Part shown: positions 20,725-28,583 of the stretch, in pieces | How the letters are laid out: each line of letters opens with the position of its first letter | How positions within the stretch are numbered: position 1 is the stretch's first letter | From: Clostridium rhizosphaerae | GTDB lineage: Bacteria; Bacillota; Clostridia; Clostridiales; Clostridiaceae | Reading direction: 5' to 3' | Length of the DNA stretch: 64,000 bases | Assembly (NCBI RefSeq): GCF_016765585.1 | Contig: NZ_JAESWC010000001.1 | Span: 496,001-560,000, forward strand | Notes under the pieces: generated by a model | The model's input: only the letters and a program-made list of their open reading frames with translations | Databases searched by the model: none | What the model was told of the DNA's origin: nothing | Translations under genes and position numbers: made by a program

Positions 20725-21735
20725 CTATTCAACCTTCCAGATATACTCCCCTTTTTTATCAATATATCTTGTTCTATTTTCAAATAAAACTTTAGAAGCT
20801 CCATCTATAAACTTAGATACTTCATCAAAAACAGGATTTATAACAAAGTTTTCTTCCATGTCTATAAAGCCCCATTTGCCGTTAACTTCAACAGATATTA
20901 AACCTTCACTTACAACGTCAACATTATCATATTTTACAGCTATAACTTCTTTACCTTCTTTATTAATAAAACCATATTTATCTTCTATAGCAACAGCTGC
21001 AAGACCTTCATAGAAGCTGTCTGCCCAATCGTACTTAAATTCTATAACAGTTTTTCCTGAAGCATTTATATATCCATATTTATTGTTCAATTCAACTGCT
21101 GCTAAACCTTCGCTGAAATCATTAACTAAAGAGTACTTAGGCTTTATCACCATTTCTCCTTTATTATTTATATAACCATAATTTCCATTTACCTGAACAG
21201 CCGCCATTCCTTCACTGAAACCATGTGCATAATCATATTCAGGTTCTATAACTATTTTTCCGTTTTTATCTATGTATCCAAGCTTGCCGCCAAGCTGTAC
21301 TAGAGCTAAACCTTCGCTGAAATCATAAGCAGCTAAATACTCCGGCTCTATAACAATGCTGCCTTCTTTATTTATAAATCCCCACTTATAGCCTATTTGT
21401 ACAGCAGCAAGATCTTCCGCAAAACCATTAGCCTCATCATATACTGCTTTTATTTTTAGGTTACCCTTCTCATCTACAAAGCCTTTTTTACCGTTAAGCT
21501 CAACAACTGTGTAACCTTCACTGTACTCAAATACATCCTGAAATTCCTCTGAACTAACTATGCTGCCTGCTTTGTCTGTAAAACCAAAATTGTCTCCAAT
21601 TCCTATAACAGCCAGTTCTCCATAGAATTCCTCACCATATTCAAACTTTGGTTCTATAACTATTTTCCCTGTGTTATCAATATATCCATATTTTCCATTA
21701 AGCTTTATTGGATATAAACTTTTATTATCAGCCAT
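20725..21735 (-). CDS. WG-repeat protein
   Basis: A 336-residue protein made almost entirely of about ten WG (KWG) repeats of roughly 32 residues, each of the form GKYGYID..GK.VIEP.YD.A..FSEGLAAV. It has no signal peptide and no other domain. Known: WG repeats form beta-hairpin arrays thought to mediate protein binding; no enzyme activity is established. It is a single-gene unit with its own terminator, and its leader carries copy C of the dispersed leader repeat. AAGGAG precedes the ATG. Confidence 0.88.
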   Translation of the reverse strand: MADNKSLYPIKLNGKYGYIDNTGKIVIEPKFEYGEEFYGELAVIGIGDNFGFTDKAGSIVSSEEFQDVFEYSEGYTVVELNGKKGFVDEKGNLKIKAVYDEANGFAEDLAAVQIGYKWGFINKEGSIVIEPEYLAAYDFSEGLALVQLGGKLGYIDKNGKIVIEPEYDYAHGFSEGMAAVQVNGNYGYINNKGEMVIKPKYSLVNDFSEGLAAVELNNKYGYINASGKTVIEFKYDWADSFYEGLAAVAIEDKYGFINKEGKEVIAVKYDNVDVVSEGLISVEVNGKWGFIDMEENFVINPVFDEVSKFIDGASKVLFENRTRYIDKKGEYIWKVE

Positions 21736-21941: not shown

Positions 21942-21974
21942 AAGCTGCCCGTATCATTTTAATACAAGCAGCTT
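21942..21974 (-). terminator. Terminator of the flotillin/ATP-grasp operon
   Basis: AAGCTGC (21942-21948) and GCAGCTT (21968-21974), with an inner GTAT/ATAC stem; on the minus strand it is followed by CAATTTT. It lies directly after the last gene of the operon. Confidence 0.75.
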
Positions 21975-21979
21975 TAAAA

Positions 21980-22573
21980 CTAATCTCCCAAGCTAAGCTC
22001 ACCCACATCCTTAATCTTATCCTTGCTTGAATAAATTATATAGTAGTAATGAGTCTTAACATCCTGATCCTTTTTATAAGTTCTTTTAAATGCTCTAACC
22101 TTGCCTTCAAGATTTTTATACTGAGAATTTTGTGCTTCATCTGTATACACTATATTAAAAAACTTTTTAGTAGCATCAATAGTATCTGAAGTCTGTCCGT
22201 CCTTTTCAGCCTGGAACCTTACATGAACTATATTATTCAAAGTGCCGGTTCCTGCATAATAGCCATCTAGATTTACTAAATTAGCCTCCTCCATAAATTC
22301 TTCTCCGGTTTGAGTGTAGCCTTCTAACGCCTCTACGTGTATTACCTTTTGACAACTGGATAACGCACCAACTGAAAACATTGCAATAATAAACAGAAAA
22401 AATCCCGCAAAGGCTAATGAGATCTTATTATTATTCTTTTTTACAGTCTTACTTCTTTTTTTAGGACTGTTTTGCTTTAGGGTGTTAGGATAATAATCAT
22501 TTCTGGGACTACTTTCCTTTAATGCATTAGGATAATAACCATTTCTTGTACCTTTATAATATTTCCCTTTCAA
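21980..22573 (-). CDS. Membrane-anchored protein of the ATP-grasp operon, unknown function
   Basis: A 197-residue protein with an unusual N-terminus: two imperfect repeats (NGYYPNALKESSPR and NDYYPNTLKQNSPK), a basic stretch KKRSKTVKKNNNK, one hydrophobic segment (about residues 52-71) and then LSSC, which could be a lipobox despite the long N-region. The remaining 120 residues are predicted outside the membrane and read as a small alpha/beta domain; I do not recognise it. It starts with TTG, six bases after GGGGG, and directly follows the ATP-grasp gene. The Tyr/Asn-rich cytoplasmic tail might be a modification target, which is inference only. Confidence 0.6.
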   Translation of the reverse strand: MKGKYYKGTRNGYYPNALKESSPRNDYYPNTLKQNSPKKRSKTVKKNNNKISLAFAGFFLFIIAMFSVGALSSCQKVIHVEALEGYTQTGEEFMEEANLVNLDGYYAGTGTLNNIVHVRFQAEKDGQTSDTIDATKKFFNIVYTDEAQNSQYKNLEGKVRAFKRTYKKDQDVKTHYYYIIYSSKDKIKDVGELSLGD

Positions 22574-22585
22574 AAAAATCCCCCT

Positions 22586-25030
22586 CTATTCTATAAATGC
22601 AGGAGTATAAATACATAAGTTTTGTGTTACGAACTTGCCAAGCCTTGTATATATTCCCGCAAATTCAGTTCCCGTTACATAAGCTCCAAAAATAGGATAT
22701 AATACATCCTGAAACTTATCTATATTATCATGAACAGTATAGTCAACATTAAGAGTATGAACTCTTCCCTGATATATATGATTTTCGTCCGGTATGTCCT
22801 TAAGCTCAAAAGCTAAATCTATGCCTCTTCCTTCTCTTGAAAGTATGGGCTTTACAATATAATCATAAGTTTCAAGCTTTTCTACATCAAGCGAAGTCTT
22901 TGGTATATATTTTGTTATAAGACGGCTTTCCTCTTCATTATAGAAACCTTGATTTAAAAACTCATACATAACTGCAAAAAAAGCCTTTGACTGTGAAATA
23001 ATAGTATGAGTCGGATTTATGGACAGTGTATTTTTAAGCGCTTCTTTTAAATCTGTCATCCCTTCTAAATCAAACCAATCCAGCGGATAATATCTATAAA
23101 CTGCATCCAGCTCTTTATTAAACAATGATATCTTCCCGCTATCAGACACGGTGCAGTCATATATAGTGCCAACAACAAATTCAAAAGGCAGCTCTTTTAA
23201 AGTTTTGTACAGGGTATTCGTAGTATACCAGTCTTCGTAGTAAGTACTTGATAAAATACCTATGGTTTTTATGCTGTGTACCTTTGAATAATCCTCCATT
23301 ATCTTTGTAAATTGCTTTATTATTTTGCTTTTAAGCTCCTCATTTGCACTGGACTTATTTATATTAAGTTCAGCTTTCATAATATTATCAATATAAAGGC
23401 TTTCAATAAGTCCTGCTGGAGTTTCTGAGTTTATCTCAAGAAGCTTTAAATTTCCGGAGAAATCTATTGCCCAATCCATTCTAGCTAAAAACACAAATTC
23501 CTCTGTAAACTTATACTTTAATATTTCCTTTAGATTCTCTATACCTAATATATCTGCAAAATAATCTATATTGTTGTATAAAAGAGATTGTGTCTTATGC
23601 ATTATAGAAGCCATTTTGCTAGTTGCCTCTTTAAGCTCCTCATACTTATTCTTTTCTAAAGTAATATAGTCAAGTCCTACATATTCAAAATTCTTTACAT
23701 ATCTTCCTGTAAAATCAGCCTCAAACATAGCCCTTTCAGTAATCTTATTCCAAAGCTTTTTTCGCTGTTTTTCGTCTAAAGCAGCAGAGTTTATTTTAAC
23801 TGCATCACTCTTTATGCCTATAGGAGTAATCCAGGTATAGTCGTCCGTAGTCAAATAATCACCGCTCCAGCGTATACAGCAGCCTGAAAGTTCATTATCA
23901 AATATAAAGCAGCCTATATTGGCAAAGGCTTTTGTAGGAATAACAAATTTCCCATCGGGAGTGTAGTAGGAATCACTTGGCTTAATTTCACAAAACTCTT
24001 GTATTATAAAATCCTTGCCACTTTCTAAAACATATTGAACACTTTTCTTCCATTCTTCTTCTGTATGAAGAGAGCCTATAAAAACATCTATACTGTATCT
24101 TCCATACACCGGTTTAAGTACAAGCTCGTTTTTGTGCTCTAATATATAATTTATCTTGGACTTATCAAATAGTTCTGTATGAGGTAAGGTTGCCGCTATA
24201 ATTTCCATTTCAAGCTCAGTCAGCCTTTTATCCTTTGCCTTAGTCAGCTGCCAAAGATATGTGTAAAGATTTTTGCACTGTCCAATTATAACTCTAGCAT
24301 CATTAGCTATATCTACTCTGCCTTTTTCAAAGACCTCAAGTATCTTATCAAAGTCATTTATTTCATAAGAAAACTCTGTAGGAAAGAGTCTTAAAATAAT
24401 ATCTATCTGTCTTTTAAAACCATATACCTGCTCATTTTCTACATAAAGATTTTTAGGTCCTACTCTTATGAACTCTACATTTTCTCTCTTGAGCTCCTTT
24501 TCCAAAAGATACATTATATGTGCCTCTTCAGCATGACAAGGATCTGATAGAAGAGCTATGGTATAGTTTTCTTTATGAGGCTGTGCTTTTAGAAGTTTTT
24601 CAAAGGCCTTTTTAAACCTATCTCTATATTCAAGATTTATATTATTATTAGCCTCCATTTCTCCTGTAGCTAATATTTCTCTTTGAGCACAAGGCTTGTC
24701 ATAATTGAATTCACTGTAGAAAACTCCGCCTTTAGCTCTAATAAAGCTGTCATATCTTACCCAAAAAGTATCTCCTAAAGGTCTTTTTAAATTTAGTATT
24801 TTATCCTTATATTGAAAGTCAGGTATAAAGCTCTGAAAATCCTTAAATTCATCGGTTATATTAGACATAATCCTATATACAAGCTTATTTAGTATTTCAG
24901 AACTGTCTTTAAATTCCTTGTACTCTTCCTTTGAGATATAAAAAGGAACAGTACAATAGATATCTTCTTTTCTAGTTGAATGAATCATATAATAATCAAA
25001 CAATAACTTGTCTGATAGTTTTCCGTACAT
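22586..25030 (-). CDS. Tandem ATP-grasp protein, glutathionylspermidine-synthase (YgiC) family
   Basis: An 814-residue cytoplasmic protein built from two copies of a pre-ATP-grasp plus ATP-grasp module. Seen: module 1 has FSEFNYDKPCAQRE (about 106-118), a Rossmann-like segment, and LVLKPVYGRYS (303-313); module 2 has LLEINSETPAGL (530-541), a second Rossmann-like segment, and VKPILSREGRGI (726-737). Module 2 is closer to the YgiC/Gss pattern. Known: this family forms amide bonds using ATP, and stand-alone YgiC-type members are uncharacterised or suspected peptide ligases. Neighbours: a Gly/Ser-rich exported protein, flotillin and an NfeD-type protein. It has no amidase domain, unlike E. coli Gss. 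AAGGGG precedes the ATG. Confidence 0.82.
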   Translation of the reverse strand: MYGKLSDKLLFDYYMIHSTRKEDIYCTVPFYISKEEYKEFKDSSEILNKLVYRIMSNITDEFKDFQSFIPDFQYKDKILNLKRPLGDTFWVRYDSFIRAKGGVFYSEFNYDKPCAQREILATGEMEANNNINLEYRDRFKKAFEKLLKAQPHKENYTIALLSDPCHAEEAHIMYLLEKELKRENVEFIRVGPKNLYVENEQVYGFKRQIDIILRLFPTEFSYEINDFDKILEVFEKGRVDIANDARVIIGQCKNLYTYLWQLTKAKDKRLTELEMEIIAATLPHTELFDKSKINYILEHKNELVLKPVYGRYSIDVFIGSLHTEEEWKKSVQYVLESGKDFIIQEFCEIKPSDSYYTPDGKFVIPTKAFANIGCFIFDNELSGCCIRWSGDYLTTDDYTWITPIGIKSDAVKINSAALDEKQRKKLWNKITERAMFEADFTGRYVKNFEYVGLDYITLEKNKYEELKEATSKMASIMHKTQSLLYNNIDYFADILGIENLKEILKYKFTEEFVFLARMDWAIDFSGNLKLLEINSETPAGLIESLYIDNIMKAELNINKSSANEELKSKIIKQFTKIMEDYSKVHSIKTIGILSSTYYEDWYTTNTLYKTLKELPFEFVVGTIYDCTVSDSGKISLFNKELDAVYRYYPLDWFDLEGMTDLKEALKNTLSINPTHTIISQSKAFFAVMYEFLNQGFYNEEESRLITKYIPKTSLDVEKLETYDYIVKPILSREGRGIDLAFELKDIPDENHIYQGRVHTLNVDYTVHDNIDKFQDVLYPIFGAYVTGTEFAGIYTRLGKFVTQNLCIYTPAFIE

Positions 25031-25044
25031 AATTTAACCCCTTC

Positions 25045-25383
25045 TTAACTTGAAGAACTTGATAGGTGTACTCCTGAGTATCCACTCTTTGAACCGGTTG
25101 AAGCAGTCCAACTTTTCCATCCTCCATTTGATATGGATTCATTGGAATTATTTATTGAGTAGCTGTGGAATATGAATGGAGTATGGAATCCCCCTCCACC
25201 AGACATTATTATTGGACTTCCGCTATTTTGCTGTTCCTGCTTTTGCATTTCCTCTTCATCAACTACTACCTTAGGCGGCTTTTTTTCACAGCCTGTTTCA
25301 AAAAGAGGATTTGCTAGTACCATAGATACTACCATAGCAAGAGCTACTGCCTTGGACTTTCCTTTATTCTCTTTTTCGCTCAT
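25045..25383 (-). CDS. Short exported Gly/Ser-rich protein (YgiB-like role suspected)
   Basis: A 112-residue protein. Seen: a charged N-terminus, one hydrophobic stretch (about residues 12-28), then ETGCEKKPP, a lipobox-like Cys with a non-standard -3 residue; an acidic Gln-rich linker; and a low-complexity Gly/Ser/Asn/His-rich tail ending GVHLSSSSS. Its layout recalls E. coli YgiB (DUF1190), the lipoprotein paired with the ATP-grasp protein YgiC. It overlaps the upstream gene by 20 bases and precedes the ATP-grasp gene by 14 bases, so the products are likely coupled. Inference: membrane-attached partner or substrate of the ligase. GGGGAG precedes the ATG. Confidence 0.65.
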   Translation of the reverse strand: MSEKENKGKSKAVALAMVVSMVLANPLFETGCEKKPPKVVVDEEEMQKQEQQNSGSPIIMSGGGGFHTPFIFHSYSINNSNESISNGGWKSWTASTGSKSGYSGVHLSSSSS

Positions 25384-26017
25384 TTAATATCTCCCCTATA
25401 TCAATCATGTTTACAGTAAAATCATTTTCTTTTAGATAATCTAAATAGCACTTTATATCTTCTTTTATATCTTTATCATATAAAAAACTAACTGATCTTT
25501 TGTTTAGTTTCCTTAGCATATCGATATCCGGCATCTCTTCTTCAGTTATTTCATACTGATTATTAAAAACCATAGGATTATTTATATCCATACCATTTAT
25601 ATATCTGTTCTTATCAAGTATAAAAGCCCAGCTTATTGGTTTTATAGGCTCAATTACATCCGCTGCTCCAACGAGTGTTTCAATAAGTCTATTATCTCCG
25701 ACTATGCCATAAGGATGAAAAAGGAAGTTATAAGACAGTATAGGACAAACCCTAAATTCATTGTTTAATACTACTGCCGTATTAATACCAAGCATGCTGT
25801 CTACATCTGCTATTAATATTCTATCTTCCTCAATATTTTCCTTTAAAGCCTTTCTAAGCTCATCTTTTATTTTAAAATCCTTATTTAAGTTTAACTCAAA
25901 GTCCTCCATATATTTTGCCGTAACAAAGGGTGAAGACTTAAACAAATATTCAAACTCACAAGAATTAGCAGTCCACTTTTTATATATTAGGTACCATTCT
26001 ACATTACTTAATCTCAT
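25364..26017 (-). CDS. Unknown conserved-looking protein of the ATP-grasp operon
   Basis: About 217 residues, soluble, acidic, with no recognisable motif. The open frame extends upstream, but the ATG at 26017 (MRLSNVEWYL) has GGCGG eight bases before it and overlaps the stop of the previous gene by 14 bases, so I choose it over the ATG at 26035. Seen: mixed alpha/beta composition with a Pro-containing middle (IEPIKPISWAFIL). It overlaps genes on both sides, which argues for tight co-expression with the duplicated small protein and the Gly/Ser-rich protein. No function is assigned. Confidence 0.6.
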   Translation of the reverse strand: MRLSNVEWYLIYKKWTANSCEFEYLFKSSPFVTAKYMEDFELNLNKDFKIKDELRKALKENIEEDRILIADVDSMLGINTAVVLNNEFRVCPILSYNFLFHPYGIVGDNRLIETLVGAADVIEPIKPISWAFILDKNRYINGMDINNPMVFNNQYEITEEEMPDIDMLRKLNKRSVSFLYDKDIKEDIKCYLDYLKENDFTVNMIDIGEILNERKRE

Positions 26018-26399
26018 AGTGTGTTCCGCCCTCATGAACAAAAGCAATTACAGGAAAAGTAGATACTATATGAGTCAGCCCTTCTTCCCCGGAAACTATT
26101 ATGTTATGCTCGTTAATAGCTTTTACCACTCCATTAAATTCAATTTCAGGGCTTGAACTATTATAAGCCTTTTCTGAATAGTATATATACACAGGCTTAA
26201 GCATATGATAGCCTCCAGCATAATCTCCATCATAAACTATAGAAACCACATTAGTCATTGGTATAATATGTTCATAGCCCTCATGGTCTTTTACAACAAG
26301 ATTATGGCCTGTAACCTTTATTATATCTCCCTTTAAAGTCACCTCTGGATTGCTATCATTATAGCTTCTAATTGAATTATATATATAAATATTGCACAT
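26004..26399 (-). CDS. Small protein made of an internal duplication, unknown function
   Basis: 131 residues formed by two copies of the same roughly 54-residue beta-rich unit: residues 5-58 (YIYNSIRSYNDSNPEVTLKG..) and 71-124 (YIYYSEKAYNSSSPEIEFNG..), each with a H-N-[LI]-[VI]-V turn followed by a segment ending V.[YH][DE]G. The fold may be a small barrel of the Sm/OB size class, which is inference. The frame opens at 26459, inside a hairpin; AAGGAG nine bases before the ATG at 26399 sets the start. It overlaps the next gene. Confidence 0.6.
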   Translation of the reverse strand: MCNIYIYNSIRSYNDSNPEVTLKGDIIKVTGHNLVVKDHEGYEHIIPMTNVVSIVYDGDYAGGYHMLKPVYIYYSEKAYNSSSPEIEFNGVVKAINEHNIIVSGEEGLTHIVSTFPVIAFVHEGGTHYEIK

Positions 26400-26432
26400 A
26401 GAACATCTCTCCTTCAATAAACTTTTACTTTT

Positions 26433-26462
26433 AAAATGCGTGACATATGCGTCACGCATTTT
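26433..26462. terminator. Perfect 12-base-pair hairpin inside the flotillin operon
   Basis: AAAATGCGTGAC (26433-26444) and GTCACGCATTTT (26451-26462) are exact inverted repeats around a six-base loop, between the flotillin gene and the duplicated small-protein gene. On the minus strand only a short T-run (TTTT) follows, so it may reduce rather than stop transcription into the ATP-grasp genes, or protect the flotillin mRNA end. Confidence 0.65.
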
Positions 26463-26478
26463 ATCATTTCTTATTCAA

Positions 26479-27951
26479 TTATTTTTCTTCTTTTTTAGTA
26501 TCCATATTTTCTATCTTTTTATTTAATAGATTCATGATATTAACTCCTGTTAATGCCTCAACAGTTTCTGGAAGCTGTGCCATTATATCAGTAACATAGC
26601 CTGTAACCTTGGAAGCCCCTTTTCCTTCACCGTTTCCGCTGTCAAGAATAACAATTTTTTCAGTTTTAGATAATGGCTCTGCAACAGCTTTTGCAATTTC
26701 AGGAAGCTTTTCAATGATCATTTGAGTCATAGCAGCATCGTTGTAAAGCTTAAATGCTTCTGCTTTCTTAGCCATAGCCTCAGCTTCAGCCTTACCTTTT
26801 TCTCTTATTATATCAACCTCTGCCATACCTTGAAGTCTTAAAGCTTCGGATTTTGCTTTACCTTCAAGTTCTATAGATCTTGCTCTTGCTTCTGCATCAG
26901 CAATTTCCTTATACTTTACAGAGTCTGCAACTTGTACTTGTCTAAACTTATCAGCTTCTGCCTGCTTTTTAACTGTAGCTTCAAGTTCTCTTTCTTTTCT
27001 TAAAGCTTCTTTTTCAGCAAGTTCTATTTCTCTTTCCTTCTTTGTTATTTCAACTTGTACTGCGGCGTCAGCAAGTTCCTTTTCTTTAAGCTTTCTAGTG
27101 ATTTCAACCTGCATTTGAGTTTCAGTAACTTCTCTTTTAACTTTGTTAGATTCAATTTCGTAAGCAAGGTCAGAAGTAGCCTTTGCTATTTCCTGATCTT
27201 TTCTATAAGCCTGAACCTTTAATTCTTTTTCCTTATTTGACTCAGCAATTTGAGTTTCTGATAAAATCTTAGCAGCCTCTCCAAGTCTTACAGCTTCTGC
27301 AGTTTTAATTTTTGTTTCTTTGTTCGCTTCTGCTTCAGCAATCAAAGCATCTCTTTTAACTGCTGCTATTCTTGGCTTACCAAGTGCTTCTAAATATCCA
27401 TTTTTATCTGCTATATCTTTAATAGTTAATACCTTAAGTTCAAGCCCCATTTGAGCTAAATCAAGAGCTGCAACTTCCTGTGCATGAGAAGCAAACTTTT
27501 CTCTGTCCATATATATTTCTTCAACTGTCATCTTAGAAACTATTTCTCTAAGCTTACCTTCAAGTACATTTTTCGTTGTATGCTCAATTACTTGAAGAGT
27601 ATGCTGAAGTCCATTTGAAGTATTAAACTGTTCAGCAGCTGACAAAATAGATTCAGTGTCCGACTTTACCTTAACAACAGCAACACCATCAGCTATTATG
27701 CCAACACCTTGACTGGTTAATGCACCATCAATACGAGTTTCTATTTGCATGTTTTCAAGTGAAATCTTATCTGTTCTTTCAAGCAGCGGAACAACAAATC
27801 CACCACCGCCTGTTATAACTCTTTTTCTAAGTCCTGTAACAACTAAGGCTTTGTCCTGCGGAACTCTCTTCCACATTGAAAATACGCTTAGGATTAATAG
27901 TATTATGACCCCCACTATTATTCCTGGAATAATAAGATTTGTTAAATCCAT
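26479..27951 (-). CDS. Flotillin-like membrane scaffold protein (YuaG/YqiK family)
   Basis: A 490-residue flotillin. Seen: an N-terminal membrane segment (about residues 5-27), an SPFH/band-7 domain (VPQDKALVVTGLRKRVITGGGGFVVP is split here only by reading; about residues 30-190), then a long Ala/Glu/Lys coiled coil rich in AEAEA and KAEAEA repeats (about 195-400) and a C-terminal tail. Known: such proteins organise functional membrane microdomains and are often encoded beside an NfeD-type partner, as here (24 bases upstream). Its linkage to an ATP-grasp ligase and a Gly/Ser-rich exported protein suggests a membrane-surface modification or stress system. GGGGAG precedes the ATG. Confidence 0.92.
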   Translation of the reverse strand: MDLTNLIIPGIIVGVIILLILSVFSMWKRVPQDKALVVTGLRKRVITGGGGFVVPLLERTDKISLENMQIETRIDGALTSQGVGIIADGVAVVKVKSDTESILSAAEQFNTSNGLQHTLQVIEHTTKNVLEGKLREIVSKMTVEEIYMDREKFASHAQEVAALDLAQMGLELKVLTIKDIADKNGYLEALGKPRIAAVKRDALIAEAEANKETKIKTAEAVRLGEAAKILSETQIAESNKEKELKVQAYRKDQEIAKATSDLAYEIESNKVKREVTETQMQVEITRKLKEKELADAAVQVEITKKEREIELAEKEALRKERELEATVKKQAEADKFRQVQVADSVKYKEIADAEARARSIELEGKAKSEALRLQGMAEVDIIREKGKAEAEAMAKKAEAFKLYNDAAMTQMIIEKLPEIAKAVAEPLSKTEKIVILDSGNGEGKGASKVTGYVTDIMAQLPETVEALTGVNIMNLLNKKIENMDTKKEEK

Positions 27952-27974
27952 TTTTAAATCTCCCCTTTTTATAA

Positions 27975-28583
27975 TTAATTTTTATAATTTAATGGTTCAA
28001 CATAAAATAAGTTATTTTTTATTTCGTATATTATTACATCTTCACCTTGTAAGACTTCTTTTTTAGCTATATGCTGAGCAGGAGCATTGTACTTCTTGCC
28101 ATTTACTACATAGGCTATAGTACCGTACCCTTCTTCAAGTATCGGCGATATAACCTTTGCCTGCATCCCAATAAGCTGTTTTCTAGAGAAGGCGCTTGTA
28201 TTTTGTGCTTTATAAAGAGGTACAACTATAAATTTATAAAGAATAAATGCTACTATTAATCCAGAAACAATAGCCATGACACATAATATTAACGCATTTA
28301 AATTATAATGAGTACCTATCATTCCAATTCCGCCAAAAACGGTAAGGAAAGAAACTATAGTTATAGGCTTTAAAGGAAACACTGCAAAAGTAGGGGGAGT
28401 CCCGCTTCCTTCTACATGAGTATCTAAATGTCCATGTCCTCCAAAATGAGCATCAAAATGCGTATGCATATTTGTATCTACATGGCCGTCGATATGAAGC
28501 AGCCCAAAAAGTCCGCCCATTAAGGAAGTAACTACGGTATAAATAACTCCTACCCAAAAAACAATAGTATACAATTGACTCAT
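27975..28583 (-). CDS. NfeD/YuaF-like membrane protein with a His-rich segment
   Basis: A 202-residue membrane protein. Seen: an N-terminal membrane segment (about 8-28), a segment at residues 30-56 with eight histidines interspersed with Asp, two further hydrophobic segments (about 67-115), and a C-terminal domain (about 135-200) reading like the NfeD OB-fold (GMQAKVISPILEEGYGTIAYV). Known: NfeD-type proteins pair with flotillins (YuaF with FloT, YqiJ with YqiK). The His-rich part suggests metal binding. It is the first gene of the operon; AAAGGGG lies about 13 bases before the ATG, a long spacing. Confidence 0.85.
   Translation of the reverse strand: MSQLYTIVFWVGVIYTVVTSLMGGLFGLLHIDGHVDTNMHTHFDAHFGGHGHLDTHVEGSGTPPTFAVFPLKPITIVSFLTVFGGIGMIGTHYNLNALILCVMAIVSGLIVAFILYKFIVVPLYKAQNTSAFSRKQLIGMQAKVISPILEEGYGTIAYVVNGKKYNAPAQHIAKKEVLQGEDVIIYEIKNNLFYVEPLNYKN

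Follow-up and report, generated by a model that had tools for sequence, protein, structure and literature searches.

We analyzed a 64,000-nucleotide window of the Clostridium rhizosphaerae genome (contig NZ_JAESWC010000001.1), in which seven consecutive genes include one for an ATP-grasp ligase of 814 amino acids (aa). An earlier, sequence-only reading of the window had described the seven as one operon; all of these open reading frames (ORFs) lie where that reading placed them, and all are on the minus strand. From upstream to downstream, they encode an NfeD-like protein, a flotillin, a small protein (here, D), a further protein (here, U), an exported Gly/Ser-tailed protein (here, GS), the ligase, and a membrane protein (here, T) (Table 1). 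We read this stretch as two blocks, in which the flotillin/NfeD pair appears to stand in a loose, recurring neighborhood with a core and not to form one machine with it. Judged by sequence comparison, the conserved object is that core, made up of D, U, GS, and the two-headed ligase; it occurs in Clostridia and their kin, often together with a DUF350 protein or another membrane protein.

Table 1. Features of the seven-gene stretch, with positions in the window
Feature	Positions	Strand	Remarks
NfeD/YuaF-like membrane protein, 202 aa	27975..28583	-	Facultative neighbor outside the core; weak PF01957 match
Flotillin, 490 aa	26479..27951	-	Facultative neighbor outside the core; Band_7 and Flot domains
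Hairpin between flotillin and D, 13 pairs	26432..26463	-	Fails the terminator pattern in the coding direction
D, small protein, 131 aa from inferred start	26004..26399	-	ORF open from 26459 (151 aa); alignment A2
U, 217 aa from inferred start	25364..26017	-	ORF open from 26047 (227 aa); alignment A1
GS, exported Gly/Ser-tailed protein, 112 aa	25045..25383	-	Predicted substrate; ORF present in 57/57 loci
GS C-terminal tail, SGYSGVHLSSSSS	25048..25086	-	Predicted recognition and modification site; Tyr position kept
Ligase N half, residues 1-430, GspS-like ATP-grasp	23741..25030	-	CP_ATPgrasp_2; catalytic positions kept
Ligase C half, residues 431-814, YgiC/YjfC-like ATP-grasp	22586..23740	-	GSP_synth, 4.5e-42
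T, membrane protein, 197 aa	21980..22573	-	Hydrophobic residues 49-78; found in 23/57 loci
Terminator-like hairpin 3' of the last gene	21942..21974	-	Stem of 15 pairs, with a T-rich tail after it

The conserved core and its two-headed ligase

The probable start of D, at position 26399, lies behind AAGGAGAG and is indicated by homologues and by the ribosome site, while that of U, at position 26017, is indicated by homologues. Pfam searches gave clear matches for the flotillin and the ligase and a weak one for the NfeD-like protein; the proteins of 197, 112, 227, and 151 aa stayed below every cut-off. The whole genome (4.85 Mb) contains a single GSP_synth match.

The ligase is composed of two homologous ATP-grasp halves of the YgiC/YjfC/GspS kind, as the sequence-only reading had proposed. 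CP_ATPgrasp_2 covers residues 117-350 (1.1e-11) and GSP_synth (PF03738) covers residues 448-813 (145 bits against a cut-off of 29.3); the families above their cut-offs are GSP_synth and two CP_ATPgrasp families, and no amidase domain was recognized. The PDB chains closest to the C half are those of YgiC (7uk8, E 4e-15) and YjfC (7uk6, 1e-9), followed by GspS, and trypanothione synthetase is also in the match list. By hhalign, the two halves are homologous to each other (99.8%, 6e-29). Residues R517, D519, E532, N534, E599, K682, K727, R732, and R796 of the C half align with GspS positions 316, 318, 330, 332, 391, 498, 533, 538, and 598, which we take to be the ATP, magnesium, and catalytic residues. 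The GspS residues concerned (R316, D318, E330, N332, E391, K498, K533, R538, and R598) are identical in eight clostridial C halves, YgiC, and YjfC. In an alignment of the ligases from 30 of the 57 loci described below (alignment A5, which excludes L038 and L048, with ligases that are short or truncated at the end of a contig), the nine C-half positions are invariant, and R92, D94, E107, N109, E168, E169, K253, K306, R311, and R387 of the N half are likewise found in 30/30. Because the catalytic positions are kept in both halves, the ligase is apparently one chain with two working heads.

For comparison we used 57 distinct loci, those of the 32 core-bearing genomes among 146 of the family and 25 further distinct ones, after removal of duplicate records. 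An alignment-based profile search of genome contigs yielded 47 loci, against none with a single-protein query; 41 of the 47 match both ligase halves, and all of these are Bacillota by record title; in the remaining six, the match lies entirely or mostly in one half. We considered whether these six distant matches (L137 to L142) are ligases divided over two genes, a view that we dropped, as they are single-domain-sized proteins in other contexts. Three of them, from Obscuribacterales and Blastocatellia (L137, L139, and L141), are single-domain CP-ATP-grasp-like proteins, each followed by one further protein that is presumably of the glutamate-cysteine ligase type.

Within the compared set, U and a GS ORF adjoin the ligase in 57/57 loci, and D was found in 55/57 (it was not found in L044 and L048). 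The GS ORF lies immediately upstream of the ligase in every locus, with a disturbed frame in one (L037). This core order is far above chance. The spread of the core is patchy: the ligase is present in 32/146 genomes of the family, and U in 49/225 genomes of the order and 4/398 of the phylum. The ligases nearest to that of the window are from a congeneric genome (69%) and from C. acidisoli and C. akagii (63%). Since the ligase tree departs from the genus labels in places, with the members of g31 and of g18 each falling in different clades, horizontal transfer of the core is likely. In g31, the ligases belong to two well-separated clades (L033/L034 and L056/L058).

T occurs in 23/57 loci and is the partner in one clade. 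A DUF350-like gene stands near the core in 27/57 loci, as a full-length gene upstream of D in 8 and in half-length form in 19; there is none near the core of the window, whose genome has one short DUF350-like stretch elsewhere. The half-length proteins (about 69 aa) replace full-length ones in the C. beijerinckii clade (L112, L117, L119, L122, L134, L147, L151, and others). In L117, L119, and L122, the half-length gene is followed by one for a large exported protein of 686 aa, which we take to be an M13-type metallopeptidase. In one genome, two extra ORFs, one of them presumably a resolvase, separate the ligase from T (L039:5521-7518), two genes that are adjacent in close relatives. After T, the window has a gene for a nine-repeat WG protein (20725-21735, minus strand), as does the genome G090 (L032); phmmer did not find this protein in any of the 30 other family loci retrieved.

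D consists of two copies of a unit of about 60 aa (alignment A2), in agreement with its earlier description as a duplicated small protein, and 6/30 D proteins have a weak DUF6897 match (best E, 2.4e-4). U is without a hydrophobic segment by hydropathy; its invariant residues are Y22, D81, L125, R148, NNQY162-165, P173, K195, D197, and Y201 (numbering of the 227-aa ORF; alignment A1, 32 rows). T, a membrane protein, has a single hydrophobic region and probably a domain outside the cytoplasm. Kinship of U with YjfK/DUF2491 was considered and rejected (hhalign probability, 0.1%). T showed no similarity to the membrane protein encoded after the ligase in deep clades, and kinship between these two was rejected as well.

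The GS tail and the predicted modification

GS is a protein of 93 to 154 aa with a basic, hydrophobic N terminus, and 52/56 GS proteins have an acidic pair at residues 29-80. The last 40 residues are rich in Ser (36%) and Gly (19%), the final residue is Ser in 42, Gly in 12, and Ala in 2 of the 56 proteins, and a Tyr lies 10 to 12 residues from the C terminus in 55/56. In the GS alignment (A3, 31 rows, L037 being dropped for its disturbed frame), this Tyr position is present in 31/31 rows; over 500 rounds of tail shuffling, it averaged 4.2 rows and never exceeded 10. The full tail motif, a broader pattern, is present in 30/31 rows, against a shuffled mean of 6.6 and maximum of 14, and was found in 0/344 other ORFs of the same loci. 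In L037 (9727-10122, a contig of C. magnum), the Gly/Ser tail is out of the open frame, and the copies of its relatives are intact. The sequence-only reading's short Gly/Ser-rich exported protein beside an ATP-grasp gene is therefore borne out across the set, the ORF being just upstream of the ligase throughout.

Similar tails occur outside Clostridia. We looked at 13 loci with single-headed relatives of the ligase, namely, two of Escherichia coli and eleven plasmid loci hand-picked for variety among 30 of 147 records. A Gly/Ser-tailed protein is encoded at or near the ligase gene in 11/13 of these Proteobacteria and Actinobacteria loci, and 10/11 of its tails have a Gly-aromatic-Gly motif 11 to 25 residues from the C terminus, with GLG at -19 in Tsukamurella. 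The end of the Arthrobacter protein, GGFGSGAKGGSVGG, and that of a clostridial example, SGYSGAKGGSSSS, are alike. By sequence, clostridial and outside tails appear similar in place, makeup, and motif, not by alignment. The YgiB-YgiC pairing that had been cited for enterobacteria is present in E. coli, where yqiJK lies about 10.6 kb from ygiC. Two actinobacterial Gly/Ser-tailed, lipoprotein-like proteins that precede YgiC-type ligases (L185:4396-4893 and L189:2271-2774) are annotated as tRNA-dihydrouridine synthase, a label that looks wrong.

We propose, giving it about an even chance, that the ligase amidates the GS tail at its C terminus, that the amine is most likely spermidine or another polyamine, and that the modified protein is exported. 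A protein encoded beside the ligase, with a conserved residue counted from the C terminus, fits a protein substrate amidated at its C-terminal carboxylate. YgiC and YjfC are annotated as peptide-spermidine ligases in E. coli, and this is reportedly also how the title of a 2023 paper describes them. In the proposed sequence of events, U and D would help, before export, to bring the tail of GS to the ligase in the cytosol. The ligase would use ATP to activate the C-terminal carboxylate of GS and couple it to the amine, for which spermidine or another polyamine is the most likely candidate. The second head would make a second bond, either by adding an amino acid ahead of the amine or by using both ends of the polyamine. 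The modified GS would then be exported, and T, or DUF350 in other clades, might act with it at the membrane. The window genome has a spermidine synthase.

Several observations weigh against this proposal. (i) On the side of the peptide, one GS protein (L136) is without the Tyr at -10 to -12. The strict lipobox pattern is present in 42/56 GS proteins and fails in 14/56, among them the window's own GS, which has ETGC and no canonical lipobox, and six have no Cys in residues 15-60; lipid anchoring thus seems to be common but not required. GS matches no Pfam family at an E value of 1, and DUF1190 is not among the matches at E 0.1 of the 31 members of A3; hhalign aligns GS with YjfM in the signal region only, with the tails unaligned. 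Classification of GS as a plain DUF1190 member was rejected on these two results. (ii) Among the 13 outside loci, no Gly/Ser-tailed protein was seen in Azospirillum and Paracoccus (in the latter, L190, an unannotated stretch, the lookup was limited to a pattern for plus-strand lipoproteins). One gene separates the Gly/Ser-tailed protein from the ligase in Vibrio, and in Sulfitobacter the protein comes after the ligase. (iii) The identity of the amine is a guess, and two core-bearing genomes, G067 and G101, gave no strong match for spermidine synthase. The enzyme was found in 30/32 core-bearing genomes and in 30/39 of those taken from the 114 core-less ones; this difference is not significant (p = 0.10), and a polyamine synthase as a trait linked to the core was dropped. 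(iv) The Pfam and PDB searches gave no convincing relatives for U, D, and T, and for this reason the roles suggested for these proteins are guesses.

An extended version of the proposal, which we consider improbable, would have each head link one GS C terminus to one spermidine amine, so that two membrane-anchored GS proteins would be cross-linked tail to tail as a protein-level counterpart of trypanothione. More broadly, it would make a hitherto unrecognized C-terminal polyamine tag, placed by YgiC-type ligases, a feature of exported proteins in three phyla. In the literature covered, which does not include the original enzymology paper, no natural substrates of YgiC/YjfC-type ligases are named. 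A tail counted from the C terminus and similar in Clostridia, Proteobacteria, and Actinobacteria provides a concrete predicted protein substrate and a predicted site. If the proposal is true, bacteria attach an amine to the C terminus of exported proteins, and the two-headed enzyme of Clostridia would add a new design to this theme.

Alternative explanations and the flotillin neighborhood

An explanation that we find possible but unlikely is that the ligase product is small and free, for example a peptidyl-polyamine or a glutathionylspermidine-like thiol, with GS as nothing more than a surface partner, sensor, or carrier of that product. GspS joins spermidine to the C-terminal Gly of glutathione and makes a free conjugate, and both GspS and trypanothione synthetase are in the structure match list; two heads would also suit a two-step synthesis. 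However, the constant adjacency of the GS ORF and the near-fixed position of its Tyr relative to the C terminus would be superfluous in a mere partner, and, among the neighbors that the family loci share, none stood out as another enzyme of such a synthesis.

The sequence-only reading suggested a microdomain system built on flotillin, with NfeD, flotillin, and the ligase acting as one machine. The identity of the flotillin is well supported (Band_7, 1.9e-25, and Flot, 5.3e-8, both above the Pfam cut-offs), although it scores 445 bits with the NCBI FloT model NF058507, whose cut-off is 700. The NfeD/YuaF-like label is weak: the PF01957 match of the protein (E, 0.0034) is below the cut-off, and YuaF (2k14) is reached at an E value of 0.27, ranked under unrelated chains. 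The pair adjoins the core in only 4/57 distinct loci (those of the window, G090, G066, and G030), with a gap of about 2 kb between the NfeD and flotillin genes in G066. Of the synteny that had been proposed as a check, the ligase and the short Gly/Ser-rich ORF keep together in all 57 loci, and flotillin is beside them in these four; the ATP-grasp and flotillin genes are not always apart. When flotillin is called at an E value of 1e-60, 18 of the 32 core-bearing genomes lack it, 10 have it elsewhere, and 4 have it next to the core. Of the 31 genomes in which the flotillin gene is not next to a core, we inspected 10 (7 of these bear the core): NfeD precedes flotillin in 10/10 places, and the genes around the pair are unrelated in 10/10. 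Flotillin as a fixed part of the core was rejected for the rarity of the adjacency and the varying neighbors of the pair, and the claim that flotillin and NfeD are set components of one system is not supported in that form.

Some evidence does point to a connection. At least two changes of the flotillin-adjacency label are needed on the ligase tree (55 rows); because these represent separate adjacencies, a loose tie may still exist. Flotillin is commoner in core-bearing genomes (14/32 against 21/114, p = 0.005) and in genera with the core (8/13 against 8/33 other genera, p = 0.036), both values being uncorrected for kinship. Another SPFH tie to the ligase family is seen on plasmid pQBR103, where the gene for an SPFH protein comes second after that for a single-headed ligase relative. 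The row there (L182) comprises YjfI, PspA, a rhomboid protease, DUF2491, DUF350, DUF1190, the ligase, a membrane protein, and the SPFH protein. Published neighborhoods (PMC11237479) include PspA together with flotillin, and GSPS-like ATP-grasp proteins together with PspA or band-7 proteins.

A hairpin between flotillin and D is present in 4/4 of the adjacent genomes (z = -3.0 in the window, -4.8 in G090, -2.2 in G030, and -1.3 in G066); that of the window has -20.6 kcal/mol, against -12.9 for shuffled sequences. Read along the coding strand, the hairpin of G030 alone fits the terminator pattern, and the idea that these hairpins are terminators was dropped. Because only one of the four intervening hairpins has the pattern, flotillin and the core may share a transcript. 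The single operon originally described is thus possible, and what is conserved among the loci is the order of the core. Taken together, the four adjacencies, the 18 core-bearing genomes lacking flotillin, and the unrelated surroundings of the pair make a flotillin microdomain machine a doubtful reading with little chance of being right; flotillin and NfeD would be a loose helper at most.

We regard it as very unlikely that GS is a graspetide-type ribosomal peptide, in which the ATP-grasp enzyme would form ester or amide bridges from the acidic stretch to Ser or Lys side chains. The acidic pair of most GS proteins and the Ser-rich tail would fit. However, graspetide ligases are of another, RimK-like ATP-grasp kind, whereas the ligase here matches GSP_synth and CP_ATPgrasp; moreover, the C terminus of GS is fixed, but its acidic stretch differs from protein to protein in position and in length. 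The terms glutathionyl, YgiC, and circularly are absent from the main text of a graspetide survey (PMC8939145; term search). Finally, a defense or toxin-like module, which the patchy spread in the family and the transfer-like departures of g31 and g18 on the ligase tree might suggest, is hardly credible, as PADLOC gave no match for any of the seven proteins and the core order is kept across very diverged loci.

Comparison with known systems

The clostridial core has its nearest known counterparts in the yjfIJKLMC and ygiBC genes of E. coli. There, too, the ligase directly follows an exported protein with a Gly/Ser tail and an aromatic residue near its end (a feature of our own definition, not of the authors of the DUF1190 family), and the checked catalytic residues are identical in the clostridial ligase; yjfLMC also includes a DUF350 member, as do 27/57 clostridial loci, although not that of the window. 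YgiC (386 aa) and YjfC (387 aa) are single ligase domains of about 390 aa, in contrast to the clostridial two-headed fusion. In addition, clostridial GS is about half as long as YjfM and YgiB and has no DUF1190 match, and U and D stand in the place of YjfI, YjfJ, and YjfK.

GspS and trypanothione synthetase share the ATP-grasp fold and the catalytic positions with the clostridial ligase, which differs from them in being two headed, in having no recognized amidase domain, and in probably acting on a protein substrate. The NfeD-like and flotillin genes form a pair like YuaF-FloT of Bacillus subtilis and YqiJ-YqiK of E. coli, but the clostridial pair is merely a neighbor of the ligase core, and its flotillin stays below the FloT cut-off.

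Among the papers listed by our searches, in a coverage that most subscription papers fall outside, none besides PMC11237479 treats this unit or the tail idea, judged by titles and the beginnings of abstracts. In that paper, Ravi et al. (2024) describe operons in which GSPS-like ATP-grasp ligases occur with DUF350, DUF1190, and either PspA/CesT or band-7 proteins. Themes common to these operons and the clostridial unit are an ATP-grasp peptide ligase, DUF350 (in 27/57 clostridial loci), an exported protein that is a lipoprotein in the operons and probably so in many of the clostridial loci, and an occasional band-7 protein; the operons of their section 19 are without a tandem ligase, U- or D-like proteins, or a C-terminal tail substrate. 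As far as that section describes them, the clostridial unit belongs to this circle by its ligase and DUF350 and is set apart by its tandem ligase, U, D, and minimal peptide.

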